Of a DNA stretch of 64,000 nucleotides, positions 5,875 to 53,422 are shown in pieces. Location of the stretch: the NCBI RefSeq assembly GCF_900115675.1, contig NZ_FOXI01000002.1, forward strand, positions 1 to 64,000, given 5' to 3'. Every line of letters begins with the position of its first letter. Within the stretch, counting starts at the first letter, position 1. The notes below the pieces were generated by a model. It saw nothing but the letters and a program-made list of their open reading frames with translations. It was not told the origin of the DNA and ran no database searches. Both the position numbers and the translations under genes were made by a program. Source of the stretch: Halolamina pelagica (GTDB lineage: Archaea; Halobacteriota; Halobacteria; Halobacteriales; Haloferacaceae).

Positions 5875-6648
5875 TTAGCCGCCGTAGACGGCGTCCCAGC
5901 GCATCGCTCGCCGACGGTTCCCGCAGTCGTCACAGACGAACTCGTCCATCGTGCCGACGTTCACGTCGAGGCTGCCACAGACGCTGCAGTACCAGCCGTA
6001 GTGTTCCTCTCGTTCCTCGTCGAGGTAGGTCGGGTGGAACGGGCCGTCCGAGCCGCGTTCGCTCTCGTCGTAGGCGATCAGGACCGTCTCGCCGTCGTCG
6101 GTCTCCACGCGCTCGATGTCGTCGTCGGCCGCTGCCGGCCCGCGTTCGCCGACGAGCGTCACCTCGACCACGCGGTCGTCCGCGAGGCGCACGTATCGCG
6201 TGTGTTCGGGGTCGTACCCGTACTGTTCGTAGAACGCCACCCCCGCCTCGTTCGCCTCGATCACGCGGGCCTCGATCCGTTCGGCGCCGGCGTCGTGCAG
6301 CGCCGACTCGATCCGGTCGAGTAACCGGTCGGCGGCGCCCTCGCCACGCCGGTCCGGCCGGACGTGGAGCCACTCGATCTGGCCGACGCGGGGCGACTCG
6401 CCCGCGACGAACGCCTGCACGAAGCCGACGATCTCGCCGTCGTCCTCGGCGACGATCACGATCGTGTGGTCGTCGGCGAGCTCCTCGGCGATCGTGCCGG
6501 GAGAGGACTCCTCGGTCCCGTACCACGATTCGACCGCCATCCGGCGGCTCTCGTCGTCGAGTACGTCGTCGTAGGAGGCAGCGAGTGAGCGGTTCGCCAC
6601 GTCCCTGATCCCGGGGATATCGGTCTCCCGTGCGACTCGAAGGTGCAT
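5875..6648 (-). CDS. GNAT acetyltransferase with C-terminal zinc ribbon
   Basis: The 257-residue protein starts MHLRVARETDIPGIRDVANRSL, the typical beginning of a GCN5-related N-acetyltransferase. The acetyl-CoA loop is seen at about residues 105-125 (LHVRPDRRGEGAADRLL, motif A with R-x2-G-x-G/A), followed by EANEAGVAFYEQYGY (motif B). The last 45 residues add a four-cysteine ribbon, CSVCGSLDVNVGTMDEFVCDDC, seemingly a zinc site absent from most GNATs. The internal ATG at 6648 is preferred over the longer frame because the extra upstream residues do not belong to the fold. The substrate is unknown. Confidence 0.82.
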   Translation of the reverse strand: MHLRVARETDIPGIRDVANRSLAASYDDVLDDESRRMAVESWYGTEESSPGTIAEELADDHTIVIVAEDDGEIVGFVQAFVAGESPRVGQIEWLHVRPDRRGEGAADRLLDRIESALHDAGAERIEARVIEANEAGVAFYEQYGYDPEHTRYVRLADDRVVEVTLVGERGPAAADDDIERVETDDGETVLIAYDESERGSDGPFHPTYLDEEREEHYGWYCSVCGSLDVNVGTMDEFVCDDCGNRRRAMRWDAVYGG

Positions 6649-6726
6649 ACACCACCGTTCGGCGTGCGTCGTGTTCAATCTATGGCCGGATGCTCCGCCC
6701 GCGGGAGCCGATCGGCGGTCGCAGGC

Positions 6727-8388
6727 TCAGGCTCCCGCGTCGGCTTTCACCAGTTCGACGACGAACACGGCGCCTCGCGGCTCGTTGTCCTCGATCCGGA
6801 CCTCCCCGCCGAACTGCTCGGTCAGGGTGTGGACGAGGTAGAGCCCGATCCCGGAGCCGGGGCTGTCGAGCCCCTTTTCGCCCTTGCCGAAGATTCGCTC
6901 TTTCTGGTCGTCGGGGACGCCCGGGCCGTTGTCGGCGACGCGAACCTCGACGGTATCGGCGTGCTCGGTCGCCTCGACGGTGACCTCGGGCGCCGACGAG
7001 TCGTTGTGGCGAACGGCGTTCCCGAGGAGGTTCCGGAACACCGAGGAGAGCATCTCGCCGCCCAGCACCGACGCGGTCGGGATGTCGCCGGCGACGCGGA
7101 ACTCGGCGTCGGGGAACGTCTCCCGGACGGCCTCCAGTTCCGTCTCGAGGTGGCGCCGCAGATCGGTCGGTGCGGGTTCGGGGGCGTGTTCACCCGAGAG
7201 CGACTCGACGAACTCGCGGACGGTCTCGGTGAGCTCGATCACGTGGTCGGACTTCCGGAGCACGCGATCGAGCGCGTCCCGTCCCTCCTCGTCGACGTGG
7301 GGCGACAGCGTCTCGGCCCACCCGCGGATCACGGCCATGTCGTTGCGGATGTCGTGGCGCACGACGCGGTTCAGCGCCTCGAGCTGTTCGGTCTTCTCCT
7401 CGAGGCGGCGGCGGTACGCCTCCTGTTCGGTCACGTCGTTGATCGTCACCAGCTGCCCGGTCGTGACGCTGCCGGAGGTGAACGGGGAGACCGATAGCTG
7501 GTAGTAGCGGCGTTCGCCCTCGGGCCCGGTCGCGAACACCCCCGGATCGTCGAGTCGGGCCGCGAACTCGGGATCGACGGCGTCGACCGGCTGGCCGATC
7601 GAGTTCCGGAGTGCCGGGAACAGCGTCGCGGCGGCCTGGTTGAAGTCCCGCACGCGCTCGTCGCGGTCGAGGAAGACGGCGGGGGCGTCGCTGCCGCCGG
7701 TGAGCTGGACGGCCTCGAACCGCCGGACGTAGACGAACAGCGTCCCGACGGCGAAGACGGCGACGCCCGGCGGCTCGTACATCAGCGGGAGCAGCCAGTC
7801 GACCTGCTCGCCGAGGATGGTCGCGACCGCCGGCAGGCCGGTCACGACCGCGAGCGCGATCAGCGGGCGGCTGTCGGTCCCGGTGTGGTAGAACCGGTCG
7901 AGCAGCATGAAGAAGCCGACGGCGATGACCGCGTAGGACAGTCCCAGCGTGACCCAGTAGAGAAGCCCGTGCTGGATCGCGAGGTGGGGGAACGGGTCGG
8001 TCGTCCACTCGGTCGTGAAGTAGAGGTGGTGCAGCGGGTTGGTGAGTTTGAGGCCGACGAACAGGAGGAACACGCCGACCATGGCCCGTCGGTACGGCGC
8101 CTGGCGCGGGCGGCGTCCGGTGTAGGCTGCACAGAAGTAGGTCCAGGCCGCGACGGCGACGAAGGCGAAGATGAACCCGACGGTGTAGGCCGTCAACCGG
8201 AGGCTGTCGGTCGGGGCGACCAGGTAGCCGACGTAGCCCAGCGACCACAGGGCGACCGCGAGCAGGAGCCCGATGAGGCCCCGTCGGGTCCCCGGATGCT
8301 TGATCCGGAACGCGCGCGGGAGACTCAGGAGACAGGCGACCGCGGAGACGGCGAAGATACCGACGTGGGCCAGAAGCAGCGAATCCAT
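6727..8388 (-). CDS. sensor histidine kinase with N-terminal 7TM domain and PAS domain
   Basis: Residues 1-220 form seven hydrophobic helices like the 'histidine kinase N-terminal 7TM' sensor. A PAS-type domain follows (about 225-330; DAPAVFLDRDERVRDFN ... TINDVTEQEAYRRRLEEK). The HisKA H-box is RHDIRNDM with the phospho-accepting His near residue 345. The ATPase domain carries N box FRNLLGNAVRHN, G1 box VADNGPGVPDD, F box and G2 box GSGIGLYLV. The product is a membrane sensor that autophosphorylates from ATP. No response regulator is adjacent, which is common in haloarchaea. The signal could be a membrane-soluble ligand or energy state, but nothing in the sequence identifies it. Confidence 0.92.
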   Translation of the reverse strand: MDSLLLAHVGIFAVSAVACLLSLPRAFRIKHPGTRRGLIGLLLAVALWSLGYVGYLVAPTDSLRLTAYTVGFIFAFVAVAAWTYFCAAYTGRRPRQAPYRRAMVGVFLLFVGLKLTNPLHHLYFTTEWTTDPFPHLAIQHGLLYWVTLGLSYAVIAVGFFMLLDRFYHTGTDSRPLIALAVVTGLPAVATILGEQVDWLLPLMYEPPGVAVFAVGTLFVYVRRFEAVQLTGGSDAPAVFLDRDERVRDFNQAAATLFPALRNSIGQPVDAVDPEFAARLDDPGVFATGPEGERRYYQLSVSPFTSGSVTTGQLVTINDVTEQEAYRRRLEEKTEQLEALNRVVRHDIRNDMAVIRGWAETLSPHVDEEGRDALDRVLRKSDHVIELTETVREFVESLSGEHAPEPAPTDLRRHLETELEAVRETFPDAEFRVAGDIPTASVLGGEMLSSVFRNLLGNAVRHNDSSAPEVTVEATEHADTVEVRVADNGPGVPDDQKERIFGKGEKGLDSPGSGIGLYLVHTLTEQFGGEVRIEDNEPRGAVFVVELVKADAGA

Positions 8389-8478
8389 CGCGGTTGTGTG
8401 TCAGTCATGCCCACTCGGCATAACTGCTTTGGAACCGCACCCGACGGTGTGACGGGGCGTCGTCGCCGCCGCGGTTGG

Positions 8479-9591
8479 CTACTTCCGGACGATGATGCGG
8501 AGCTCGTCCTCGTCCTCGAGTTCGTGCTGGAGCCCGACCTGCTGGTCGTCGTGTTTGGCTGAATCACCGCGCACGCGGGCGAACCGGAATCGGTTCAGGA
8601 ACTCGTCGCCGCCGATGTCCAGGCAGGCGTCCTCGACGGTGGAACCCGGCGGCAGCACCAGGGGTTCCTCGTAGTCGACGCCCCGGCCGGGTTTGTCCAT
8701 GTAGACCCGGATCAGGCCCAACTCCTCCCAGATCTCCTCTTTGAGTCCCTCCAGGCCCCGCTCCTCCTCGGCGGAGATGAAGATGGCCTCCTCGGGGTCG
8801 ATGTCGTGCTCCCGGAGGTTCTCCTCGACGGTGGGGAGGTAGTCGGCGTCGATCAGGTCGGCCTTGTTGACCGTGACGATCGAGGGGAGGTAGACGCGGT
8901 TGTCCATGATCGCGTCGATGAGTTCGTCGATCGAGGGGTCGCCGCGGACGGTCACCTCGGCGTTGACGTAGCCGTGCTCGCGGAGCACGTCCTTGATCGT
9001 CTCCTCGTCCATGGAGACCGAGTCGCTGGTGGTGACCTGCAGCCCGCCGGTGTGGGATTTCGTGATCGAGATGCTCGCGGGCTCGGTGTCGAGCCGGATC
9101 TTGTTCTGGTAGAGCTCGTGGCGGAGGCGTTCGTACTGGTCGATCTCAAACACCGAGAGCATGAACACCACGAGGTCGGCGGTCCGGACGACCGAGAGCA
9201 CCTCCTGGCCGCCACCGCGGCCGCTGGCGGCGCCCTCGATCAGCCCCGGGACGTCGAGGATCTGGATGTTCGCGCCGCGGTGTTTGAGCATCCCGGGGTT
9301 CACGTCGAGCGTGGTGAACTCGTACTCGCCGGTCTCCGATTCGGCGTTGGTGAGCGCGTTGATCAGCGTCGACTTGCCGACGCTGGGGAAGCCGACGAGG
9401 GCGACGGTGGCGTCGCCGGTCTTCTCGACGGCGTAGCCGTGGCCGCCGCCGGAGGAGGACTGGTTCTCCAGCTTCTCCTTTTTCTCCGCGAGCTTCGCCT
9501 TCAGACGCCCGATATGTGCCTCCGTGGACTTGTTGTAGGGCGTCTCGGCGATCTCCTCGCGGAGCTCCTCTATCTCCTCCTCGAGTCCCAT
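8479..9591 (-). CDS. drg: DRG-type GTP-binding protein
   Basis: An Obg-superfamily GTPase of the Rbg/DRG branch, thought to act on ribosomes and translation. From the ATG at 9591 the protein has a charged helical N-terminus (GLEEEIEELREEIAETPYNKST), the G1 loop GFPSVGKST, G3 DVPGLIEGA, and G4 NKAD, and an archaeal/eukaryal helical insertion between G3 and G4. A C-terminal TGS domain begins near IRVYMDKPGRG and ends at ELRIIVRK. Length, 370 residues, is typical. The longer in-frame start at 9645 adds an 18-residue tail not seen in the family and is rejected. Confidence 0.94.
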   Translation of the reverse strand: MGLEEEIEELREEIAETPYNKSTEAHIGRLKAKLAEKKEKLENQSSSGGGHGYAVEKTGDATVALVGFPSVGKSTLINALTNAESETGEYEFTTLDVNPGMLKHRGANIQILDVPGLIEGAASGRGGGQEVLSVVRTADLVVFMLSVFEIDQYERLRHELYQNKIRLDTEPASISITKSHTGGLQVTTSDSVSMDEETIKDVLREHGYVNAEVTVRGDPSIDELIDAIMDNRVYLPSIVTVNKADLIDADYLPTVEENLREHDIDPEEAIFISAEEERGLEGLKEEIWEELGLIRVYMDKPGRGVDYEEPLVLPPGSTVEDACLDIGGDEFLNRFRFARVRGDSAKHDDQQVGLQHELEDEDELRIIVRK

Positions 9592-9634
9592 CGGGCGAAA
9601 ATCCGCCGTCGGCGTCGTTAAACCTGTTCCTTCC

Positions 9635-9739
9635 GAGCCAGTCACGGCGAGTGACCTGTGGCGACCGCCGTGTCGCCACCACAGAACTTGAGGCCGTGAC
9701 TGTGCAGAGCCAACTACGGCGCGTGACCTGTGGCGACCG
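9635..9739. repeat. pair of imperfect direct repeats in the intergenic region
   Basis: Two copies of about 33 bases lie at 9635-9667 and 9707-9739, offset by 72 bases. Both end in GTGACCTGTGGCGACCG. The first copy also contains GTCAC-GGCGA-GTGAC, a 5-base inverted repeat, and is followed by GGCGAC...GTCGCC, another hairpin. The pair lies between the divergent DRG GTPase and VOC genes, just behind the GTPase start. No CRISPR architecture is present because there are only two units. Confidence 0.5.
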
Positions 9740-9862
9740 TCATGACAGGACTCACGCCGGGGGTGTACTGTGCCACCCCGGTACGTCCGTCGGCGTCGAC
9801 TCGGGGCACGGGATCACCGTCTTCGGTAGCCTTTTCGCTCCGTCGACCCCAGATACTCGCGT

Positions 9863-10615
9863 ATGAGCCACACGCTGGATCACGTGATGATGCGGGTCGA
9901 GGACCTGGACGAGTCGCTGGAGTGGTACACGACCCACCTCGACTACGAGGAGAAGGGTCGCTGGGAGGCGGACACCTTCACCAACGTCTTCCTCGGGCCC
10001 GAGGACGTTCACGACGACGGCGCGCTGCTGGAGCTCACCTACAACCACGACGGGCGCTCCTACGAGCTGGGCGACGCCTGGGGCCACATCGCCGTCCGCG
10101 TCGAGGACGTGAACGAGGCCTACTACGAGCTGATGGACGAGGGCGTCGAGGACTACCGCCGCCCCGAGGACAACCCCGGCTACGCGTTCGTCACGGACCC
10201 CGACGGCCACGAGATCGAGATCGTCGAGCGCGACCACGGCGCCCGCTGGAGCATCGACCACACGATGATCCGCGTCGAGGACGCCGACGCCTCGCTCGGC
10301 TGGTGGACCCGGAAGATGGGCTACGAGACGACCGGGCGCTGGGAGGCCGACACGTTCGCGAACTACTTCCTCGCCCCCGAGGACGCCGCCGAGGAGGCGA
10401 TGTCCGTCGAGCTCACGTACAACTACGACGGGCGCACGTACGACCTCGGCGACGCCTGGGGGCACCTGGCAGTCGAGTGCGAGGACCTGGAGGAGTTCTG
10501 GGGGACGCTGATGACTCGCGAGGCCGAGGACTACCGCGATCCGGAGTCGTGTGACTACAACTACGCCTTCACGAAGACGTTCGACGGCCACGAAGTCGAA
10601 GTCGTGACGGAGTAA
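9863..10615 (+). CDS. two-domain VOC (glyoxalase-like) metalloprotein
   Basis: Two vicinal-oxygen-chelate domains are in tandem, each beginning with a HTM/HVM segment: MSHTLDHVMMRVEDLDESLEWY at the N-terminus and IDHTMIRVEDADASLGWW near residue 132. Each domain ends in a DPDGHEIEIVE / FDGHEVEVVTE strand carrying the usual metal-ligand glutamate. The pattern, including ELTYNHDGRSYELGDAWGHIA, matches lactoylglutathione-lyase-like proteins, although haloarchaea use other thiols, so the true substrate is unclear. A decayed copy of its last 57 codons lies 690 bases downstream, past a toxin/antitoxin pair. Confidence 0.85.
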   Translation: MSHTLDHVMMRVEDLDESLEWYTTHLDYEEKGRWEADTFTNVFLGPEDVHDDGALLELTYNHDGRSYELGDAWGHIAVRVEDVNEAYYELMDEGVEDYRRPEDNPGYAFVTDPDGHEIEIVERDHGARWSIDHTMIRVEDADASLGWWTRKMGYETTGRWEADTFANYFLAPEDAAEEAMSVELTYNYDGRTYDLGDAWGHLAVECEDLEEFWGTLMTREAEDYRDPESCDYNYAFTKTFDGHEVEVVTE

Positions 10616-10639
10616 GCGAGCCCCAGCGTTCTCTCGCGA

Positions 10640-10891
10640 CTATCGGTCGTAGACGCTATCGCGTTTGCCGATACGGCGAACGCGCAGTACGCCCGCTTCC
10701 TTGTCCCAGTCGATGATGACGCGGTAGTCGCCGACCCGGAGTCGATACAGGGTCGACCCGGAGAGGCGCTTCAAGTAGTGGTCCGGAAAATCGGTAATCG
10801 AGTGGAGCTTCTCCGTGATGCCTTCGCGTACGTCCGGTTCAGCGTCGGCCAGCCAGTCCGCGGCTTGCTCCGAAATCCGCACCTCCGTCAT
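10640..10891 (-). CDS. RelE/ParE-family toxin
   Basis: An 83-residue basic-acidic mixed protein of the RelE/StbE superfamily: MTEVRISEQAADWLADAEPD at the N-terminus, then LYRLRVGDYRVIIDWD, the core strand of the family, and a C-terminal arginine-rich IGKRDSVYDR. RelE proteins cleave mRNA at the ribosome; the family-typical basic residues needed for that are present in the C-terminal half, but activity is inferred. Its ATGA start overlaps the stop of the preceding antitoxin gene by 4 bases, a normal toxin/antitoxin coupling with the antitoxin translated first. Confidence 0.85.
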   Translation of the reverse strand: MTEVRISEQAADWLADAEPDVREGITEKLHSITDFPDHYLKRLSGSTLYRLRVGDYRVIIDWDKEAGVLRVRRIGKRDSVYDR

Positions 10892-11229
10892 TCGTGGAGT
10901 CGATCATCCAGTTCGTCCATCGAGAGGTACTCGTCCTCGTCGGCAGTCGCGTCCAGTTCGTCAGCGAGCTCCGGGTCGAGTTCCGGGGCGACCTCGGCCC
11001 ACCAGACCACGCGGTTGCCGAAGTCCTTCTTGCCTAAGTCCCCGTCACGGTGCATCTTCTCGAGTCGATCGTGGAGTGCCCGTCGTCCAATGGGCAGTTC
11101 CTCGGCAACCTCCGCGGTGGTAAGTGGCTCCTCGTCGGCGAGGCGGTCGAAGACCAGCAGGATATCCTGCCGGCTGGCGGACTCGCTGAACTCACCGCCG
11201 CCTTCACGAGCGAAATCGTCGCTGGACAT
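10888..11229 (-). CDS. winged-helix antitoxin-like protein partnered with the RelE toxin
   Basis: From ATG 11229 (or 11259 for a 123-residue form) this gives about 113 residues. A helix-turn-helix spans about residues 25-75 (QDILLVFDRLADEEPLTTAEVAEELPIGRRALHDRLEKMHRDGDLGKK), and the C-terminus is very acidic and helical (ELADELDATADEDEYLSMDELDDRL), as expected of a region that wraps a basic toxin. Its position directly upstream of and overlapping the RelE-like toxin supports an antitoxin and operon autorepressor role. It is not a classic RelB/Phd sequence, so the class is uncertain. Confidence 0.7.
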   Translation of the reverse strand: MSSDDFAREGGGEFSESASRQDILLVFDRLADEEPLTTAEVAEELPIGRRALHDRLEKMHRDGDLGKKDFGNRVVWWAEVAPELDPELADELDATADEDEYLSMDELDDRLHE

Positions 11230-17933: not shown

Positions 17934-18908
17934 CTACTCGGCGCGGTCGACCCGCGGGTCGAACAGTTCGTAGTAGGCGTCCTGGAGGAAGTTCACCGCC
18001 ACGACGAGCGCGACCGGAAGCAGGACCACGCCGAAGATCAGCCCCGGGATCCGGCTCCCGACGGCGTCGATGGTCAGCGTGCCGAACCCCGGCGTGCGGG
18101 TCACCCACTCCACGGCGTACAGTCCGACGAGCACGATCCCGAGCATCTCCGAGGAGAGCACGGTCAGCAGGCGCGCCGCGGAGTGGGGAAACACGTGCCG
18201 GCAGATCCCGAGCAGCCCCACGCCCTTCGCCCGGGCGGTCTTGACGAACGGCTCGCCCGCGTACTGCTCCAGATCCGTCCCGGCCGCCCGGAGTTGGATC
18301 GCGAACAGGTAGAACGTCATCGTGAGGAACGGCCACAGCGCCGCCCGGAGGTTCCGCGTCGAGAACGGGGTTTCGCGGGTGTTGTATCCCAGGTCCACGA
18401 TCCGGCCGGCCAGCCGGAACACGAACACCGGGAGGTAGATGTGGACCAGGTACGCGAACAGGAAGACCGGGGTCGCGACCGCGGCCGCGCCCAGCAGCGT
18501 CGTCTTCTTGGTGAGGTCGCGGCGCTCGACCGCGACGGCGAGCAGCTGGACGACCGTGCCGGCGACGACGGCGATGATCGCCGCGGGGAGCAGGTAGATC
18601 AGCGTCACCACGATCGAGTCAACCAGCAGCGAGGTCACGGGGACCACGCCCTCGTTCGTCCGGATGCTACCCAGATCGAGCGTGAGCACGCGGACCGTCC
18701 ACTCGGTGAACTGCGAGAACAGCGGCTCGGCCTGTGCGGCGAAGCGCGGCTCCGGGTAGGTGGAGACGAACGACCGGGGGACGTAGCCCATCGGCGTGGC
18801 GTTGGGGTTCTTGGTGAACGCCATCGCCAGGAAGGCGACGACGAAGGCGATCGCCATCGACAGCACCGTACGACCCCCGCGCCGGAGGAGCGTGAGGGCG
18901 CTATCCAT
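17934..18908 (-). CDS. DppB-type ABC transporter permease, copy 1
   Basis: A 324-residue inner-membrane permease of the oligopeptide/nickel type (six helices). The conserved cytosolic EAA-like loop reads VKTARAKGVGLLGICRHVFPHSAARLLTV near residue 225, and the C-terminal helices LGIVLVGLYAVEWVTRTPGFG are typical of DppB. The start at 18908 (MDSALTLLRRGGRT) is chosen because the longer frame upstream is arginine- and cysteine-rich noise. It is divergent from a DppC-type gene 137 bases away. The pair is repeated immediately downstream. No ATPase or binding protein lies here, so subunits encoded elsewhere must complete the importer. Confidence 0.87.
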   Translation of the reverse strand: MDSALTLLRRGGRTVLSMAIAFVVAFLAMAFTKNPNATPMGYVPRSFVSTYPEPRFAAQAEPLFSQFTEWTVRVLTLDLGSIRTNEGVVPVTSLLVDSIVVTLIYLLPAAIIAVVAGTVVQLLAVAVERRDLTKKTTLLGAAAVATPVFLFAYLVHIYLPVFVFRLAGRIVDLGYNTRETPFSTRNLRAALWPFLTMTFYLFAIQLRAAGTDLEQYAGEPFVKTARAKGVGLLGICRHVFPHSAARLLTVLSSEMLGIVLVGLYAVEWVTRTPGFGTLTIDAVGSRIPGLIFGVVLLPVALVVAVNFLQDAYYELFDPRVDRAE

Positions 18909-18981
18909 CGGCGCGTCGTTCGCGGCTGTCGGCTTGCTGTGTGGGCACCGGGAGGGGAGACCGCTGCGGGCGGGGCATCTG

Positions 18982-19010
18982 TTCCGTGTTGGAAACACCC
19001 AAGCTATTAG
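18982..19010. promoter_or_regulatory. divergent promoter of permease pair 1 with palindrome
   Basis: The 137-base gap between the divergent permease starts contains TTCC-GTGTT-GGAA (18982-18994), overlapping GTGTT-GGA-AACAC, and then CTATTAG (19004-19010), a TATA-like element 36 bases before the DppC-type ATG. The equivalent gap of pair 2 has a different palindrome but the same ATTAG-type TATA element. Confidence 0.4.
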
Positions 19011-19045
19011 TCGTGTCGGCTCGCGACGACATAGACACTGCTCCG

Positions 19046-20233
19046 ATGAGTGACGAGCCCTCCACGGACGCCGATCGGTTCGAAAGCATCGACTGGAGCG
19101 AGTTCGACGCCGACGACACGACGGTCGGGGTCCCCCGGTGGCTGCCGGCGACGGCGGCGCTACTGGTCGTCGCGTTCGCCTACGACTACCTCACCGTCGA
19201 AGGGGTCCCCCTCGAGATCACCGGCCTCGACTGGCTGTTGATCGCGGGGCTGTTCGTCCTCGGCTCGCTGATCGTGATCCCGGCCACCCAGAGCCCCGAG
19301 CAGGTCGGCACCTACTGGGCGCAGTTCCGACAGGACCGCCTCGCGGTCGCCGCGCTTGGCTATCTGGGCCTGTTCTTCCTCGTCGGCCTGTTCGGTCCGT
19401 TCTACTTCAACGACCCGCGACTCCACGTGCTCTACTCCTCCCAGCCGCCGGTGTGGGGGAGCATCGACCCCATGTTCGTCCCGCGCTGCTACGGCCCGAT
19501 CGTCGACGGCCGGTGTCAGGGGACGTGGGACTTCCCGCTCGGCACGAACGCGATCGCGGGGAAGGACGTGGTGACGCTGCTGGTGCTCGGGACGCGAACC
19601 AGTCTGAGCGTCGTCCTCGGCGCCGCGGCGATCGTCGTCCCGACCGGCGTCGGCGTCGGCGTCGTCGCCGAGTCCATCGGCGGGCGCGTCGAGACGGTGC
19701 TGATGTGGCTGGCCGAACAGCTGCAGACGTTCCCCGCCATCCTGATCTACTTCCTCCTGTTCTTCTGGATGGTCGAGGGGCGGCTCCGCCTGCTGATCGC
19801 CGTCCTTGGCTTCGTCAGTTGGGGCGGGCTGGCCCGCCTCGTCAGAAACGAGATCCGGGTCCGGCGCAACGAGCAGTACGTCCAGGCGGCCCGCCTCGGC
19901 GGCGTCGACGACCGACGCCTGCTCGGCCGCCACCTGCTCCCCAACATCGCGCCCTCGGTGCTGACGAACGTCACCCTGCAGGTGCCGCTGTTCGTGCTGA
20001 TCGAGGTGTCGGTCTCCTTCATCGTGATCGCGCTGGCGGGCGGCACGACGACGCTCGGCGATCCGACGAACTTCTCGTGGGGCGAGCAGATCTACAACGC
20101 GCTCTTCTCGGTCGGCGCGCCCGCCGCGTGGTGGCTCGCGGGGTTCCCGCTGCTCCTCCTTTTCCTGACGGTGTTCGCGTTCAACGTCGTCGGCGACGCG
20201 ATGGTCGACGCGCTGGAGCCCCGCAGCGACTAG
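19046..20233 (+). CDS. DppC-type ABC transporter permease, copy 1
   Basis: A 395-residue permease starting MSDEPSTDADRFESIDWSEFD. Two extra hydrophobic helices precede the usual DppC N-terminal domain (FRQDRLAVAALGYLGLFFLVGLFGP). A large external loop follows (VLYSSQPPVWGSIDPMFVPR... with two cysteines, C165 region and QGTWDFPLGT). The ABC-coupling loop is QAARLGGVDDRRLLGRHLLPNIAPSVLTN. It pairs with the divergent DppB-type gene to form a heterodimeric channel. The stop overlaps the convergent next permease stop by 4 bases. Confidence 0.87.
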   Translation: MSDEPSTDADRFESIDWSEFDADDTTVGVPRWLPATAALLVVAFAYDYLTVEGVPLEITGLDWLLIAGLFVLGSLIVIPATQSPEQVGTYWAQFRQDRLAVAALGYLGLFFLVGLFGPFYFNDPRLHVLYSSQPPVWGSIDPMFVPRCYGPIVDGRCQGTWDFPLGTNAIAGKDVVTLLVLGTRTSLSVVLGAAAIVVPTGVGVGVVAESIGGRVETVLMWLAEQLQTFPAILIYFLLFFWMVEGRLRLLIAVLGFVSWGGLARLVRNEIRVRRNEQYVQAARLGGVDDRRLLGRHLLPNIAPSVLTNVTLQVPLFVLIEVSVSFIVIALAGGTTTLGDPTNFSWGEQIYNALFSVGAPAAWWLAGFPLLLLFLTVFAFNVVGDAMVDALEPRSD

Positions 20234-21207
20234 TCGCCCGTCTCCACCCGCGGGTCGAACAGCGAGTAGTACGTCTCCCGGGCCGTGTTGACGACGGTGA
20301 CCACGAGGACGGGGAGCAACACCGCGGCGAAGATCAGCCCCGGCCCGCGGCTCCCGGCGGCGTCGATGGTGAGGGCGCCGAAGCCCGGCGTCCTCGTGAC
20401 CCATTCGACCGCGTACAGCCCCACGAGCACCATCCCGAGCATCTCGGAGGTGAGCACGGTCAGCAGGCGCGCCGCGGAGTGGGGGAACACGTGCCGGCAG
20501 ATCCCCAACAGTCCGACGCCCTTCGCCCGGGCGGTCTTGACGAACGCCTCGTCCGCGTACTGCTCCAGATCCGCCCCGGCCGCGCGGAACTGGATCGCGA
20601 ACAGGTACAGCCCCATCGTCACGCTCGGCCAGACCGCGGCCTCGAGGTTCGCCCGGGAGAACGGCCCCGTGGATTCGTCGTACCCCAGGTCGGTGATCTG
20701 GCCCGAGGTCTCGATCACGAACCCCGGGAGGTAGATCTGCAGCAGGTACGCGACTAGGAACACCGGGATCGAGATGGCGGCCGCGCCGACCAGTTTCGAC
20801 GTCGCGCTGGCGTCGCCGTACTCGACGGCGACGGCCAGCAGCTGGATCAGCGTCCCCAGGACGATCGCGAGCAGCATCGCGGGCACGAGGTGGATCAGGG
20901 TGACCGTGACCGCCTCGGCGACGACCTCGCGGACGACGACCGCCTCGTCGCCGAAGCCGATCCGCCCCAGATCGAGGGTCACGATCCGCACCAGCCAGTC
21001 GGCGTACTGGGCGACCAGCGGTTCGGACTGGGCCGCGAACCGCGGCTCCCGGTGGATTCCGCGGAACAGCCGGGGCTGGTAGGCGACCGTCGCGGTGTGT
21101 GGGTTCGGCACGTACGCCAGCGCGACGAACACGCCGGTGAACACGACCCACAGCGTCACCGCCACGCGCCCGAACCGGCGACCGAGCGCCAACAGCAGGC
21201 TACGCAT
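20230..21207 (-). CDS. DppB-type ABC transporter permease, copy 2
   Basis: A 325-residue permease, closely related at protein and DNA level to the gene at 17934-18908. The coupling-loop segment VKTARAKGVGLLGICRHVFPHSAARLLTVL is almost identical in both copies. The N-terminus MRSLLLALGRRFGRVAVTLWVVF gives the first helix after a short basic tail. It is divergent from copy 2 of the DppC-type gene and convergent with copy 1 of it, so the two-gene unit has been duplicated in tandem. Confidence 0.87.
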   Translation of the reverse strand: MRSLLLALGRRFGRVAVTLWVVFTGVFVALAYVPNPHTATVAYQPRLFRGIHREPRFAAQSEPLVAQYADWLVRIVTLDLGRIGFGDEAVVVREVVAEAVTVTLIHLVPAMLLAIVLGTLIQLLAVAVEYGDASATSKLVGAAAISIPVFLVAYLLQIYLPGFVIETSGQITDLGYDESTGPFSRANLEAAVWPSVTMGLYLFAIQFRAAGADLEQYADEAFVKTARAKGVGLLGICRHVFPHSAARLLTVLTSEMLGMVLVGLYAVEWVTRTPGFGALTIDAAGSRGPGLIFAAVLLPVLVVTVVNTARETYYSLFDPRVETGD

Positions 21208-21282
21208 CCGGACCGGCTGACTGCCGTCGATCGGCGGGCCTGTTCGGCGTCGTCGTCAGGGGTGGAGGGAGAGCCATCGGCG

Positions 21283-21315
21283 AATTGATAATGACACGTA
21301 GTCACAATTTATTAG
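21283..21315. promoter_or_regulatory. divergent promoter of permease pair 2 with palindrome
   Basis: Within the 144-base gap, TGAC-ACGTA-GTCA (21292-21304) is an inverted repeat flanked by AATTG on the left and CAATT on the right, forming a longer broken palindrome. It runs into TTTATTAG (21308-21315), a TATA-like element 37 bases before the DppC-type ATG at 21352. A regulator bound here would control one or both genes. Confidence 0.4.
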
Positions 21316-21351
21316 TTCTTGCTGACCAGTTGTCGGCGTGTCCTCCCCGCA

Positions 21352-22539
21352 ATGAGCGATCCCTCCCCCCCGGACGCCGGGCGTTTCGCGACCGTCGACT
21401 GGGACGAGTTCGACGCGGCGGCTGGCGTGCCGGCGATCCCCCGATGGCTTCCGGCCGGCGCCGTCGTCCTCCTCGCCGCGTTCGGGTACGACTACCTCTC
21501 TCCCGAGGGGCTCCCGATCGCGATGGACGGCCTCGACTGGCTGCTGGTGGTGGGGCTCTACACGTTCGGCTCGCTGGCGCTCGCGGCCCTCCTGAGCGCG
21601 CCCCAACAGATCGCCCACTACTGGAGCCAGTTCCGGACCGACCCGGTCGCCGTCGCGTGTCTGGCCTTCCTGACCGCGTTCGTCGGCGTCGGGCTGTTCG
21701 GCCCGCTCGTGGCGAGCGAGCCCGAAGTGAACGTGCTCTACTCCTCGCAGCCGCCGGTCTGGGGCAGCATCGACACGATGTACGTCCCCTCCTGTGCGGG
21801 CGAGGTCGTCGACGGGCGGTGCCACGGCTCGTGGCAGTACCCGCTTGGCACGACCGCGATCGACGGGAAGGACCTGATCGCGCTGCTGGTGCTGGCCACG
21901 CGGACGAGTCTGAGCGTCGCCCTCGGCGCCGCCACGCTGGTGGTCCCGGCGGGCGTCGGCGTCGGCGTCGCGGCGGTCCGGTTCGGCGGCCGGGTCGAGG
22001 CGGCGCTGATGTGGCTGGCCGAACAGCTCCAGTCGTTCCCCGCCGTGCTGATCTACTTCGTACTGTTCTACTGGATCGTCGAGGGGCGGCTCCGCATCCT
22101 GATCGGCGCGCTCGGACTCGTGGGCTGGGGCGGGCTTGCCCGGCTGGTGCGCGACGAGCTCCGGGTGCGACAGAACGAGCAGTACGCGCAGGCGGCCCGC
22201 CTCGGCGGCGTCGGCGACCGCCGGCTGCTGGGTCGGCACCTCCTCCCCAACGTCATGCCGGCGGTGCTCTCGAACGTCACGCTTCAGATCCCGCTGTTCA
22301 TCCTCGTCGAGGCGAGCATCGCGTTCATCCAGATCCCGGTCTCGACGGGGACGACGACGCTCGGGGACCCCTCGAACTTCTCGTGGGGGCAGCTGATCTA
22401 CAGTTCGCTGTTCACTGTCGGCTTACCGGCCTCGTGGTGGCTCGCGGGGATCCCGCTGCTCCTCCTGTCGGCGACGGTGTTCGCGTTCAACGTCGTCGGC
22501 GACGCGATGGTCGACGCGCTGGAACCCCGTGGCGACTGA
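21352..22539 (+). CDS. DppC-type ABC transporter permease, copy 2
   Basis: A 395-residue paralog of the gene at 19046-20233, with the same architecture: acidic N-tail with DWDEFDAA, two extra helices, the DppC core, the external SSQPPVWGSIDTMYVPS loop, and the coupling loop QAARLGGVGDRRLLGRHLLPNVMP. Identity is highest in the loops, while some helices differ, suggesting retained but possibly shifted substrate specificity. The start at 21352 (MSDPSPP) matches the start of copy 1; upstream in-frame codons do not. Confidence 0.87.
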   Translation: MSDPSPPDAGRFATVDWDEFDAAAGVPAIPRWLPAGAVVLLAAFGYDYLSPEGLPIAMDGLDWLLVVGLYTFGSLALAALLSAPQQIAHYWSQFRTDPVAVACLAFLTAFVGVGLFGPLVASEPEVNVLYSSQPPVWGSIDTMYVPSCAGEVVDGRCHGSWQYPLGTTAIDGKDLIALLVLATRTSLSVALGAATLVVPAGVGVGVAAVRFGGRVEAALMWLAEQLQSFPAVLIYFVLFYWIVEGRLRILIGALGLVGWGGLARLVRDELRVRQNEQYAQAARLGGVGDRRLLGRHLLPNVMPAVLSNVTLQIPLFILVEASIAFIQIPVSTGTTTLGDPSNFSWGQLIYSSLFTVGLPASWWLAGIPLLLLSATVFAFNVVGDAMVDALEPRGD

Positions 22540-22617
22540 GGCTGGACCGACGGCGGAGCTCGCTTGGCCGACGCCCGCGACCGACACCGGCTTTCGACTC
22601 CGGCCCGTGTGACGCCT

Positions 22618-22899
22618 GTGACCGAGCGTATCGAAGGCGAAGTGCTGTACGCGATCCCGCCGACGGAGCTGGGCGAGCACGATCTCGACCCGGAGCTCCG
22701 GTCGCTGGCGGAGGCCCGCCACGTCCTCGTCTGTCGGCGCGGCGGCCACCCGTCGATCTTCGAACTCGCGTGGGCGATGCTCCGCCGGGAACCGATCGAA
22801 CCGGTGACGATCGTCGCCCGCGAGGCCGCCGCCGAGGGCGACACCGTGATGCTGACCGTCGAGGAGACCACGATGAGCGGCGTCTACCGCCAGGTGTAG
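22618..22899 (+). CDS. hypothetical protein, small conserved-looking
   Basis: From the GTG at 22618 a 93-residue soluble protein is read: MTERIEGEVLYAIPPTELGEHDLDPELRSLAEARHVLV..., ending VMLTVEETTMSGVYRQV. It shows balanced alpha/beta composition and no cysteine cluster, signal or membrane helix. Its 3' end overlaps the convergent membrane-protein gene by 16 bases. I do not recognise the family. The frame is open further upstream (to 22564), but those residues are arginine-rich and look non-coding. Confidence 0.55.
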   Translation: MTERIEGEVLYAIPPTELGEHDLDPELRSLAEARHVLVCRRGGHPSIFELAWAMLRREPIEPVTIVAREAAAEGDTVMLTVEETTMSGVYRQV

Positions 22900-23567
22900 C
22901 GACGGAGCGGCCGCGCAGCGAGCACCCACGCGGCCAGCACGAACGCCGCCGTGCCGAGCAGGTAGGTCCCGCCGCCGACCGTCGGCGCCGCGCCGACGCC
23001 GAGGCCCGCGCCGCCGAGCGCGCCCGCGGCACTCGCGACCAGCGGGAGCGCACAGCTCGCACACGACCCCAGCGCCACCACCCCGCCGACGCCGACGGAG
23101 AGTCCCTCGTCGACCACGTCGCGGAGGGCCAGCGAGACCAGGTAGCCCAGGGCGACGATGCCAACCAGTCGGTAGGGGATCAGCGTGAGCGCGACTTGCG
23201 AGCCGCTGTAGCGGAAAAGCGGCCCCCAGCCGGGCGGCAGCAGCAGGAGGTCGGCGCTCGTCCCGGCGTTCGCCGCCGCCCCCACGGCGCCGGTCAGCCA
23301 CCCGAGGCCGAGGGCGTAGGCGGCGCCGATCCCACCGGCGATCCAGCGACTGACTCGCCCGACCCGCGGCCGGTCGGCGTGGCGGACGGCGACCACAGCG
23401 ACGGTGACCCAGACGAACGGCACCGCGAGCATCGTCGGCGCCGTCAGCCCGGCGTCAGTCAGTCCGAGGTAGGCCAGCGCCAGCGCCGACTGGACGCCGA
23501 GTGCCAGCACCGCGGTCCGGAGCGGCGCGGGGACCGACCACGCCGGCGCGCTGACGGTCCGGGTCAC
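22884..23567 (-). CDS. polytopic membrane protein linked to the copper/oxidase cluster
   Basis: A 227-residue protein with about six hydrophobic helices and a conspicuous CASCALP motif (VVALGSCASCALPLVASAAGALGGAG) near residue 170, two cysteines in a CxxC spacing within or beside a membrane helix. It overlaps the start of the P-type copper ATPase gene by 4 bases (its ATGA lies in the ATPase stop), so the two are translationally coupled. A part in copper supply or oxidase assembly is inferred from this coupling and the CxxC. Confidence 0.7.
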   Translation of the reverse strand: MTRTVSAPAWSVPAPLRTAVLALGVQSALALAYLGLTDAGLTAPTMLAVPFVWVTVAVVAVRHADRPRVGRVSRWIAGGIGAAYALGLGWLTGAVGAAANAGTSADLLLLPPGWGPLFRYSGSQVALTLIPYRLVGIVALGYLVSLALRDVVDEGLSVGVGGVVALGSCASCALPLVASAAGALGGAGLGVGAAPTVGGGTYLLGTAAFVLAAWVLAARPLRRYTWR

Positions 23568-45083: not shown

Positions 45084-46295
45084 TCATCCCCGGAGCGACT
45101 CCACCGGCGGCTCCCACGCCGCGCGGTAGGCGGGGTAGAGTCCACCGACGAGCGCGATCAGCACCCCGAAGCCGAACGCGCCGAGGGCGACGAGCCCGTT
45201 GGTCGGCACGAACACCGCCGACAGGGGGAGCCGGGTGTGCAGCGCGATCCCGACGACGACGGCTGCACCGAGAACGCTCCCCAGCGCGCCGCCGCCGACG
45301 CCGAGCAGCGTCGCCTCCACGAGCAGCGTCCGCAACACCTCGTTGCGGTGGATCCCAACCGCTCGGAGCACCCCGATCTCGCCGCGGCGCTCGGAGACCG
45401 TCATCAGCATGACGTTGAAAATCGAGACGCCGGCGACGACCAGCGAGATGCCCGCCACCGCGAGCAGGAACCCGTTGAGCAGCGCGAAGAACTCCGTGAT
45501 CCGGGAGAGCACGCTCGTCAGCGAGAGCACCGACACCCGCTCCTCCCGGGTGTTCAGCCGCTCGCGGACGCCGTCGGCGATCGCCCGCGCGTCGTCGGCG
45601 GAGTTGGCCTGCACCACCACCTGCGAGTAGCTGTCGGCGACGAACTCCCCGGGCGGGAGCACGACCGCCGAGCCGGGTCGGATCGGCGAGAACGTCCCCT
45701 CGGAGTCGATGATGGCGACGACCCGGTAGCGGTTCCCCTCGATCTCGACGGTCGAGCCGACCCGTGCACCCAGCCCCTCCGCGAGTTCGTCGCCGACGAC
45801 GGCGCCCTGACGGAGGTACTCGGGGACGCCGTCGACGCCGAACAGGGCGGCGGGCTGGGTCGTCCCGTAGAGTTGGGCGAAGGACTGCCCGTCCGGCCCG
45901 GCGACGCTCGCCCCGCCGGACTTCAGCGGGACGACCGTCCCGCGGCCGGCGGCCGCCTGCCGGATTCCCCCGAGTTCGCGGGCACCGAGCCCGTCGCCGC
46001 CGTCGGCGGGGCTGACGATCACCTGATTGCCGAGCCCGCCGAGTTCGGCCAGCGCGGCGGTCTGGAGGGCGGTCCCCAACATCCCCAGCGTGACGACGGC
46101 GAACACGCCGATGACGATGCCGAGCGTCGCCAGGCCAGCTCGCAGTCGCTGTCGGGAGAGGTTCCGGAGCGCGAGCGATGCGGCCGGGAACCGCCGGGCC
46201 AGCCGGTCTCCGAGGGCGGGATCGGCCGCCGCTGTCGGCTCGGTCTCCGGGACGCGGACGCCGGGATCGTCCCCCGACTGGTCGGTCTCAGTCAT
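45084..46295 (-). CDS. MacB/FtsX-like ABC transporter permease
   Basis: A 403-residue permease with one N-terminal helix (LATLGIVIGVFAVVTLGMLG), a large extracytoplasmic MacB-like domain (about 75-270), and three C-terminal helices of the FtsX domain (LLAVAGISLVVAGVSIFNVMLMTVSERRGEIGVLRAVGIHRNEVLRTLLVEA). Its start overlaps the stop of the ATPase gene by 8 bases. Such systems act by mechanotransmission or export of lipids, lipoproteins or antimicrobials rather than import. Confidence 0.9.
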   Translation of the reverse strand: MTETDQSGDDPGVRVPETEPTAAADPALGDRLARRFPAASLALRNLSRQRLRAGLATLGIVIGVFAVVTLGMLGTALQTAALAELGGLGNQVIVSPADGGDGLGARELGGIRQAAAGRGTVVPLKSGGASVAGPDGQSFAQLYGTTQPAALFGVDGVPEYLRQGAVVGDELAEGLGARVGSTVEIEGNRYRVVAIIDSEGTFSPIRPGSAVVLPPGEFVADSYSQVVVQANSADDARAIADGVRERLNTREERVSVLSLTSVLSRITEFFALLNGFLLAVAGISLVVAGVSIFNVMLMTVSERRGEIGVLRAVGIHRNEVLRTLLVEATLLGVGGGALGSVLGAAVVVGIALHTRLPLSAVFVPTNGLVALGAFGFGVLIALVGGLYPAYRAAWEPPVESLRG

Positions 46296-47007
46296 GGAGC
46301 TTCCCGTCGATCAGTTCGACGGTGCGGTCGGCGTACTCCCCGACGAGTTCGTCGTGGGTGACCGCGACCACGCCGACGCCGCCGTCGGCGATAGTGTTGA
46401 TCTCGCCCAGTACGGCCTCGCCGGTGTCCCGGTCGAGGTTCCCGGTCGGCTCGTCGGCGAGCAACACGTCGGGCTCGTTGATCAGCGAGCGGGCGATCGC
46501 GACGCGCTGTTTCTGCCCGCCCGAGAGCTCGTCGGGCGTGTGTCGTAGCCGATCGCCGAGCCCGACCCGCGTGAGCAGGTCGACCGCGCGGTCGGTGTAG
46601 TCGGCGTCGAGAAAGCGCGTCGGCAGCCGGACGTTCTCGACGGCCGACAGCGTCGGGATCAGGTGGAAGTCCTGGAAGACGAAGCCAACGCGCTCGCGGC
46701 GCACGTCGGTCCGCTCGGCCGCCGAGAGGCCGGCTACCGGCTCGCCGAGCAGTTCGACGCTACCGGTTGTCGGGTCGTCGAGCAGCCCGAGCATGTTCAG
46801 CATCGTCGATTTCCCCGAACCCGAGGGGCCCATGACCGCCGTGACCTCGCCGCGTTCGACGGTGAAACTCACGTCCTCGAGTGCGGTGACGGTGCCGCCG
46901 CCCCCGGCGTACTGTTTGGTGACGCCGTCGAGCCTGAGCGGAGGTGGATCGCCGTCGGGTGCCGTGGCGTGGGCTGCCCCGCCTGCGGCCTCGCGGTCGC
47001 CGCTCAT
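46288..47007 (-). CDS. LolD/MacB-type ABC transporter ATP-binding protein
   Basis: A 239-residue ATPase: Walker A GPSGSGKST near residue 55, Q loop FQDFHLIPTLSAVENV, signature LSGGQKQRVAIARSLI, Walker B DVLLADEPTGNLD, and H-loop AVTHDELVGEYADR. The motif forms match the LolD/MacB group. It stands between the permease and the surface protein in a three-gene operon with overlapping ends. Confidence 0.93.
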   Translation of the reverse strand: MSGDREAAGGAAHATAPDGDPPPLRLDGVTKQYAGGGGTVTALEDVSFTVERGEVTAVMGPSGSGKSTMLNMLGLLDDPTTGSVELLGEPVAGLSAAERTDVRRERVGFVFQDFHLIPTLSAVENVRLPTRFLDADYTDRAVDLLTRVGLGDRLRHTPDELSGGQKQRVAIARSLINEPDVLLADEPTGNLDRDTGEAVLGEINTIADGGVGVVAVTHDELVGEYADRTVELIDGKLHD

Positions 47008-52132: not shown

Positions 52133-53422
52133 CTACGCGAGCACGTCGAGCAGCTCCGGGGTCGACGCCGCGACGCCCGCCTCGCCCACGCGGAGCCGTC
52201 GATACGCCGCCGCGGCCGCCTCGGCAACCGTCCGCTCGTTCGTCGGCCGCTCCTCGATGCAGTACGCCGGCGTCCCGCTGTCGGCGACCGCCGACAGCAC
52301 CGGCGCCAACCCCGCAGTGAGGTCCACGTCGGCGACGACGACCGCGTCGGCCCGCTCGACCAGCGTTCGCAGGCGGTCGAGCGTCGCGTCGTCGACGCCG
52401 TCGAGCGCGCCGACTTCGAGCGTCGACATCCCCAGCGCGTCGGCGACCGCGGCGTCGCTGTCGCCCGCGGAGAGGGGGCCGACCGTCGCCTCGAGGCCGG
52501 CGCGATCGAGACGGGTCAGCAAGGGGCCCGCACGCCCGCCGCCGGCGACGACGTGGACGCGGTCGACGGGCGGGATCTCCGGGGCGTCGTCGGCGGGTTC
52601 CACGTCCGGCAGGGCGGTCACGCGTGGACGCTCGGTGACGGGGTCGGGGGTCACGACCGCGTCCACGTCGAACGCGTGGCCGACGGTCGAGCCGGTGAGC
52701 ACCGACTCGGGCGGCCCGTCGGCGACGATCCCGCCGTCGGCGACGACGACGATCCGGTCGCAGTACCGCGCCGCAGTGTCGAGGTCGTGGATCGCCGCGA
52801 TCGCCGCTCGCCCCTCCCCGGCCAGTTCGGCGACCGTCTCGAACGTTCGGAGCCGGTGGTTCGGGTCGAGGCTGGCGGTCGGCTCGTCGAGGAGCAGCAG
52901 CGGGGTGTCCTGGGCGAGCGCGCGGGCCAGCAGCACCCGCGAGCGCTCGCCGCCGGAGACCGCCGGCACGGGGCGCTCGGCGAACTCGGTAACCTCAGTC
53001 CGCTCCATCGCGCGCTCGACGGCCGCGTGGTCGGCCTCGTCCATCGCGCTGAACCGTGGGACGTGGGGCGTCCGGCCCATCGCGACGATCTCCCGGACGG
53101 AGAACGCGAAGGAGAGCGAGGTGTCCTGTGGGACCGTCGCGACACGGCGCCCCACGGCTCTCGCGGGAAGGTCGGCGACGGGATCGCCCGCGACCCGAAC
53201 CTGGCCGGAATCGGGCGAGAGCGTCCCGCGGGCGGTCCGCAGGAGCGTCGTCTTCCCCGCGCCGTTGGGGCCGACGAGCCCCACGAGTTCGCCGCGTTCC
53301 ACCTCAAGGCTCACGCCGTCGAGAACGTCGGTCTCCCCGAGCGTGACCGAGAGGTCGTCGATCGACAGCACCGGGTCGTCGGTGGGGGTCGGTACCGCTG
53401 TCTCGGTGGGGTCGCCCGTCAT
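52133..53422 (-). CDS. btuD: cobalamin ABC transporter ATPase BtuD with C-terminal extension
   Basis: A 429-residue ATPase for vitamin B12 uptake. Residues 20-260 are the ABC domain: Walker [11 protein letters not shown] loop [11 protein letters not shown], signature [15 protein letters not shown], Walker [13 protein letters not shown], and [14 protein letters not shown]. About 160 extra residues ([44 protein letters not shown]... ) form a nucleotide-fold-like domain often fused to haloarchaeal BtuD and of unknown role. It overlaps the btuC stop by 4 bases. Confidence 0.88.

Follow-up and report, generated by a model that had tools for sequence, protein, structure and literature searches.

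ATPase-less DppB/DppC permease pairs in Halolamina accompany one complete DppABCDF operon

A divergent permease tandem and its link to one operon

The window examined here (64,000 nucleotides, positions 1 to 64,000 of NZ_FOXI01000002.1 from Halolamina pelagica, referred to below as contig C17) belongs to a haloarchaeal genome of 3.16 Mb that is 99% complete, and it contains two DppB/DppC pairs of ATP-binding cassette (ABC) permease genes. The main finding is that the branch of permeases to which these pairs belong lacks ATPase genes in each of the 10 genomes in which it occurs, and that all 10 also have one particular type of complete DppABCDF operon, represented in this genome by locus L004 on contig C25. 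With a probability of about one half, in our estimate, the pairs are dedicated and separately regulated permeases that would be powered in trans by L004-type ATPases, probably without using DppA in the standard way.

The four genes lie in the order B1(-) C1(+) B2(-) C2(+) with all frames intact, exactly as an earlier reading of the sequence alone (hereafter the sequence-only reading) had described.

17934..18908, minus strand: B1, DppB-type permease, 324 amino acids; PF00528, intact frame, orthologues in Halolamina
19046..20233, plus strand: C1, DppC-type permease, 395 amino acids; PF00528 and OppC_N, model resembling E. coli DppC
20230..21207, minus strand: B2, second DppB-type permease, 325 amino acids; PF00528, 60% identical to B1
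21352..22539, plus strand: C2, second DppC-type permease, 395 amino acids; PF00528 and OppC_N, 66% identical to C1

PF00528 (BPD_transp_1) scores above the Pfam cut-off in all four proteins, as does OppC_N in C1 and C2, and the profile of the B protein matches both OppB and DppB. The domain search of the genome found no PF08352 ATPase and no PF00496 binding protein on C17, in agreement with the earlier claim that both partners are missing from the locus. Across the whole genome, the same search returned 20 PF08352 oligopeptide-type ATPase genes and 11 PF00496 family-5 binding-protein genes, all on other contigs; the 20 ATPases form ten neighbouring couples, each beside a B gene and a C gene, in ten complete operons. 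A third divergent B/C pair, also without an ATPase, is located on contig C20 (L001). Two further genes of the window, both on the minus strand (46288-47007 and 52133-53422), are ABC-ATPase-like and reach 160 and 109 bits on our home-made profiles; true DppD and DppF proteins score several hundred bits, and by PF08352 these two genes are of a non-Dpp type.

The sample comprised 292 genomes of the class. The complete L004-type operon is present in 45 of them, namely in 10 of the 10 pair-bearing genomes and in 35 of the 282 others (Fisher test, 3e-9); counted by genus, the association is 5/5 versus 18/77 (p 4e-4), and within genera the p value is 0.01. The figure of 45 genomes results from cutting the L004-type class at the G238 row, which leaves out seven g13 genomes at 57-58%, whose tree member, L036, lies outside the L004 subclade; once these seven are included, the 10/10 is unchanged and the others become 42/282 (hand count).

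Dpp-type ATPases are plentiful in these organisms, with 10-26 per genome in all 19 of the checked genomes that have ATPase-less pairs and ten operons in the genome of the window. The pairs might thus draw their ATPases from more than one operon, or from different ones, and shared habitat or joint transfer might explain the link with the L004 type, a reading also favoured by the fact that six of the ten pair-bearing genomes are of one genus. However, the pair and the operon are unlinked (on separate contigs, or with over 200 kb between them), and a control operon type of the same genome is found in only 5 of the 10 pair-bearing genomes and 2 of the 5 genera (p 0.33). Moreover, the association persists when only the 121 genomes with 12 or more ATPases are considered (counts based on no more than 20 scored candidates per genome), the L004-type operon being present in 10/10 pair-bearing genomes versus 14/111 others. 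We regard this alternative as unlikely; the co-occurrence of the pair and the L004-type operon is, in our view, a strong lead that falls short of proof. The neighbours of the L004-type operon, considered as a clue to the substrate, differ between the five genomes read.

Coupling loops

In the structures of E. coli DppABCDF, coupling loops connect DppB with DppD and DppC with DppF (PMC12136057). The corresponding segments of the window are as follows.

18171..18254, minus strand: B1, coupling (EAA) loop; conserved throughout the DppB rows
20467..20550, minus strand: coupling (EAA) loop of B2, conserved in DppB rows
19871..19945, plus strand: coupling (EAA) loop of C1
22177..22251, plus strand: coupling (EAA) loop of C2

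A coupling loop was found in every row. In the window clade, the identity of the DppB loop is 0.69 compared with 0.52 for the rest of the protein, and that of the DppC loop is 0.62 compared with 0.58. Judged by their sequence, the window permeases are still built for an ATPase. It could be argued that these proteins no longer take part in transport and act, for example, as ATPase-independent sensors or scaffolds, or that they are decaying, and the lack of partners at the locus would fit such a change. On the other hand, the coupling loops are more conserved than the rest of the protein, the frames are intact and the copies are maintained across the genus, which makes this explanation very unlikely.

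The sequence-only reading had stressed that the coupling-loop DNA is nearly identical between the two copies. The conservation is present in the protein, but the DNA identity is mostly a matter of protein constraint: fourfold-degenerate sites are 64-65% identical between the copies, which is the level of orthologues from different species, and the loop identity would therefore be due mostly to selection on the protein. Gene conversion as a general cause is ruled out by the same sites, short tracts excepted. At fourfold sites, the two DppB copies of locus L010 (G240) share 90% identity over alignment columns 240-290, compared with about 60% elsewhere, and this stretch is probably a product of gene conversion. 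Local conversion tracts between copies are thus suggested in places.

The wider clade of divergent pairs

The genes for B, C, ATPase and binding protein were annotated with home-made profiles in 89 sequences, whose loci are the best hits to the window proteins and no random sample. Among 91 tabulated pairs, three were cut off at locus ends and dropped, leaving 88, of which 39 are divergent and 49 codirectional. The trees and the later counts, including those of cysteines and docking segments, use 80 rows; eight distant operons of the window's own genome (L070-L073 and L075-L078) were left out, and L074 served as the outgroup. L078 is tabulated as having no binding protein, though the domain search finds one there, and L068, L062 and L085 were relabelled by hand as ATPase-bearing, since the distance rule had missed their D genes.

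A binding protein lies within 4 kb of 0 of the 39 untruncated divergent pairs, compared with 45 of the 49 codirectional pairs, and no binding-protein profile hit above 23 bits was obtained at the loci of divergent pairs. All divergent pairs, together with three codirectional pairs that have no other partners, form one clade (support 85 in the C tree and 98 in the B tree), which sits beside the operons with extended DppC in both trees. The divergent B/C arrangement is therefore no local oddity but typical of a whole clade without binding proteins. Ten rows of this clade carry ATPase genes after C (nine by the rule and L068 by hand). These ATPase-bearing rows are not one clade (approximately unbiased (AU) test, p 2e-79 in the C tree and 1e-38 in the B tree), nor are the ATPase-less rows in the C tree (p 3e-9); both are quick trees with some long branches. 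This implies that ATPase genes were lost or gained several times, so that, as far as the trees tell, the ATPase state of the clade has changed repeatedly. In the window's own branch, which comprises 16 rows from 10 genomes, no row has ATPase genes.

A clade without binding proteins, some of whose members have their own ATPases, brings to mind SapBCDF, a known exporter of the peptide family (PMC12772348) whose name suggests that it works without a binding protein, and the window pairs could likewise be exporters energised by borrowed ATPases. However, the sequence gives no sign of direction, and members of the window clade lack ATPases of their own; export seems to us quite unlikely.

Across the loci, a conserved partner gene was sought: beyond B, C and ABC ATPases, the widely recurring clusters are the Halolamina locus's own genes. 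One gene cluster, copper-protein-like by our own reading, occurs in 9 loci (6 of Halolamina and 3 others), and a few others occur in 3-5 loci. Variants of the arrangement were also seen. In L088 (G155, 6344-11030), one divergent DppC faces three successive DppB genes without an ATPase or binding protein, and L054 and L056 also have extra DppB copies. In L049 (G216, 6246-10441), the genes run codirectionally as A-B-C and no DppD or DppF was found beside them; ATPase genes may thus be missing from a binding-protein operon too.

The DppB docking segment and the binding protein

In E. coli DppB, a scoop motif that follows the first membrane helix enters DppA (PMC12136057). The window counterparts are altered.

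18723..18815, minus strand: segment of B1 at the place of the E. coli DppB scoop, shortened and changed; mostly coil in the model
21019..21111, minus strand: counterpart of this altered segment in B2

In 37 operon rows, the scoop-equivalent segment has a mean length of 38.9 residues, of which 9.6 are charged, compared with 33.9 and 5.6 in the 16 rows of the window clade, and in L019 it is reduced to 23 residues. The DppB of the L004-type operon aligns with E. coli DppB through the scoop stretch, whereas B1 aligns only after it, and in the predicted B1 model the segment is mostly coil, at moderate confidence. Other divergent pairs have about 41-42 residues at this place and the three codirectional partnerless pairs 29.7; since the other divergent pairs keep the length, the change belongs to the window's branch and, in a different form, to these three pairs. 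It is therefore probable that the window pairs do not use DppA in the standard way. The sequence-only reading had proposed that ABC partners are shared from elsewhere; ATPases are indeed present elsewhere in the genome, but the alteration of the docking-element counterpart in DppB makes it doubtful that a binding protein is shared as well.

A lone family-5 binding lipoprotein without a permease operon is encoded on contig C18 (402999-404783; L069, 6000-7784). As a specific partner of the pairs, it is ruled out by its distribution, its relatives being found in 185 of the 292 genomes, sometimes in two or three copies, and in only 6 of the 10 pair-bearing genomes. Its existence nevertheless lends something to the idea that the pairs serve ordinary import as alternative permease modules, which would borrow the ATPases of the operon together with the operon's binding protein or a free one. 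The L004-type operon supplies both ATPases and a binding protein, and the co-occurrence fits this idea equally well. The altered DppB segment, the distribution of the C18 protein and the lack of a nearby binding protein in 39 of 39 divergent pairs speak against ordinary import, which we consider rather unlikely.

Proposed mechanism

Based on the results presented above, neighbouring genes would pair, B1 with C1 and B2 with C2, each couple forming a DppB-DppC heterodimer. Having no ATPase of its own, the heterodimer would use its intact coupling loops to dock on DppD and DppF encoded by the L004-type operon, and DppA would not be used in the standard way, given the altered docking segment of DppB. 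The two copies represent an old duplication that has been kept under selection with differing promoter sites.

Several points weigh against this mechanism. Some of the positions at which E. coli DppB contacts DppD (PMC12136057) differ in B1, and the same positions differ in part in the DppB of the L004-type operon too. L018, which belongs to the same window clade, has a scoop-equivalent segment of normal length (39 residues). The co-occurrence test was framed after the data had been seen, with only one control operon run, and the pair-bearing genomes are concentrated in one genus, as mentioned above. No promoter element common to the pairs and the L004-type operon was found in the stretches read. 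Docking in trans is itself argued from co-occurrence and sequence.

A broader proposal, which we put forward tentatively as a possibility, is that the pairs belong to a haloarchaeal clade of plug-in permeases. In this view, DppB-DppC heterodimers would have become independent of the binding protein and, several times, of ATPase genes of their own; they would dock on ATPases from a single resident DppABCDF operon, whose one motor pair would thereby drive several separately regulated channels.

Age and history of the tandem

The two-gene unit is repeated at a spacing of 2296-2306 bp. The tandem is present in five of the seven Halolamina genomes, and a single pair is found in the other two (G042 and G190); the neighbouring genes are unchanged in six of the seven, the seventh genome (G292) standing outside this comparison. 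The claimed tandem duplication of the divergent unit is thereby confirmed, and no conventional operon, which would have refuted the earlier claim, occupies this place among the Halolamina loci read. By DppB identity, the named relatives found with a narrow profile of the window clade are Halolamina rubra (94%), H. pelagica (90%) and H. salifodinae (76%).

In the trees, the copy-1 genes of five genomes group together, as do the copy-2 genes of five genomes. Since the copies cluster separately across species, the duplication predates the split of these species and, on this phylogenetic evidence, is older than the species carrying the tandem. G042 retains the copy-2 pair and G190 the copy-1 pair, which looks like reciprocal loss. 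Two units head to tail at regular spacing could also arise from an assembly artefact or a very recent duplication, the former having been named in the earlier reading as what would overturn its claim. With B1 and B2 60% identical and C1 and C2 66% identical, however, the proteins differ by 34-40%; synonymous divergence between the copies is at the background level, the tandem occurs in five of seven genomes of the genus, relatives carry the tandem or a single pair at the same place, and the copies fall into separate clades across species. Artefact and recent duplication are both refuted by these observations. In L091 (H. pelagica, G292; about 7001-7974), copy-2 DppB is matched in one frame for residues 1-243 only, and its C-terminal part lies in a separate short frame, which represents a frameshift or a sequencing error of this draft genome.

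DppC extension, promoter regions and flanking genes

The remaining features of the locus are listed below.

19139..19291, plus strand: two extra N-terminal helices of C1, residues 32-49 and 60-82; model, mean predicted local distance difference test score (pLDDT) 83
19487..19516, plus strand: cysteine pair of C1, residues 148 and 157, in an external loop; pair present in 78/80 DppC rows
18980..18997, no strand: palindromic stretch upstream of C1, read directly; arms partly kept in relatives
19001..19022, plus strand: conserved core of the C1 promoter region, TATA-like; 19 columns identical in 5/5 genomes
21292..21304, no strand: different palindrome upstream of C2; related sequence in 5/5 genomes, some imperfect
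21308..21329, plus strand: conserved core of the C2 promoter region, TATA-like; few changes in 5/5 genomes

The predicted model of C1, whose best structural match is E. coli DppC, has two additional helices ahead of the usual first helix. The extra helices and the cysteine loop had been described as features of these DppC copies; they are present (the helices in the C1 model), but they are not special. The extension is also found in operon DppCs, and the cysteine pair occurs in 78 of the 80 DppC rows examined, operon DppCs included, the two exceptions being outgroup rows. Because both are common to the DppCs of ordinary DppABCDF operons, they are family traits, and their standing as special features is ruled out.

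The footprints of both intergenic regions sit in the C-side half, and each follows its own, differing palindromic stretch, while the B-side halves are little conserved. The copy-2 core is related to the copy-1 core but continues differently, and the copy-1 pattern matches the genome exactly at a single site and with three mismatches at a second. About 40 bases from footprint to start codon fit an archaeal TATA box. The different palindromes noted earlier at the two divergent promoters are thus real, and the footprints adjoining them are conserved in five of five genomes for each copy.

C1 and B2 converge, their stop codons overlapping by 4 bp, and the overlap is identical in four of the four tandem genomes examined. 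The four-gene block is flanked by a PrsW-type protease gene on one side and by DUF7526 and DUF7546 genes on the other; the latter two (window 22564-23567), whose function is unknown, adjoin permease pairs in six Halolamina genomes.

Comparison with known systems

In general, the sequence-only interpretation is supported in part: the tandem, the missing partners, the differing promoter sites and the presence of ATPases elsewhere all stand, whereas the DppC traits are not special, and the sharing of a binding protein has become doubtful. Most oddities of the locus are features of the permease family and of the clade without binding proteins; the finding itself is real and old, and the part worth following is the strict link of the ATPase-less branch to one complete operon. 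This link is new, and the strict co-occurrence of an unlinked pair with one operon points to a specific partner, so that the idea can be tested directly. No paper on ATPase-less Dpp permease pairs in haloarchaea was recognised in the open literature among the matches listed; in PMC10067837, a Streptomyces mutant is reported to regain its hyphae with a peptide-transport operon from haloarchaea, a result that does not concern orphan pairs. It also follows, as a warning, that solitary haloarchaeal DppB/DppC genes should not automatically be taken for remnants.

With the DppABCDF/OppABCDF importers known from E. coli and M. tuberculosis structures, the window pairs have the permease families and the coupling loops in common; they differ in that the locus has no ATPase or binding-protein gene, B and C are divergent, the DppB docking segment is altered and DppC is extended. 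The haloarchaeal L004-type operons are closer, with the same DppC extension and cysteine loop, and form the sister clade of the divergent pairs, but they are complete and codirectional and include DppA, DppD and DppF, unlike the window pairs.

As the name of the system suggests, the peptide-family permeases of SapBCDF work without the binding protein SapA. The window pairs have no binding-protein gene nearby, although one might be used in trans; SapBCDF has its own ATPases, SapD and SapF, whereas the window clade has none and ten other divergent rows do have ATPases. SapBCDF proteins are described as putrescine exporters (PMC12772348).

Sharing of an ATPase is documented for MsmK of Streptococcus (PMC4519317) and MceG of Mycobacterium (PMC9947336), which drive permeases without an ATPase of their own from a gene encoded elsewhere, and the window pairs are alike in lacking their own ATPase. 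Those, as reported there, are carbohydrate and lipid systems, whereas the peptide-type heterodimer of the window would depend on two ATPases. A peptide transporter that borrows both of its motors and has no binding protein would, if true, go beyond what is documented for sugar and lipid importers. That parts of peptide transporters recombine in trans is also known from Pseudomonas aeruginosa, where DppBCDF works with five DppA proteins (PMC4206461). In that case, a single translocator serves several binding proteins, whereas in Halolamina several translocators would share one pair of ATPases.

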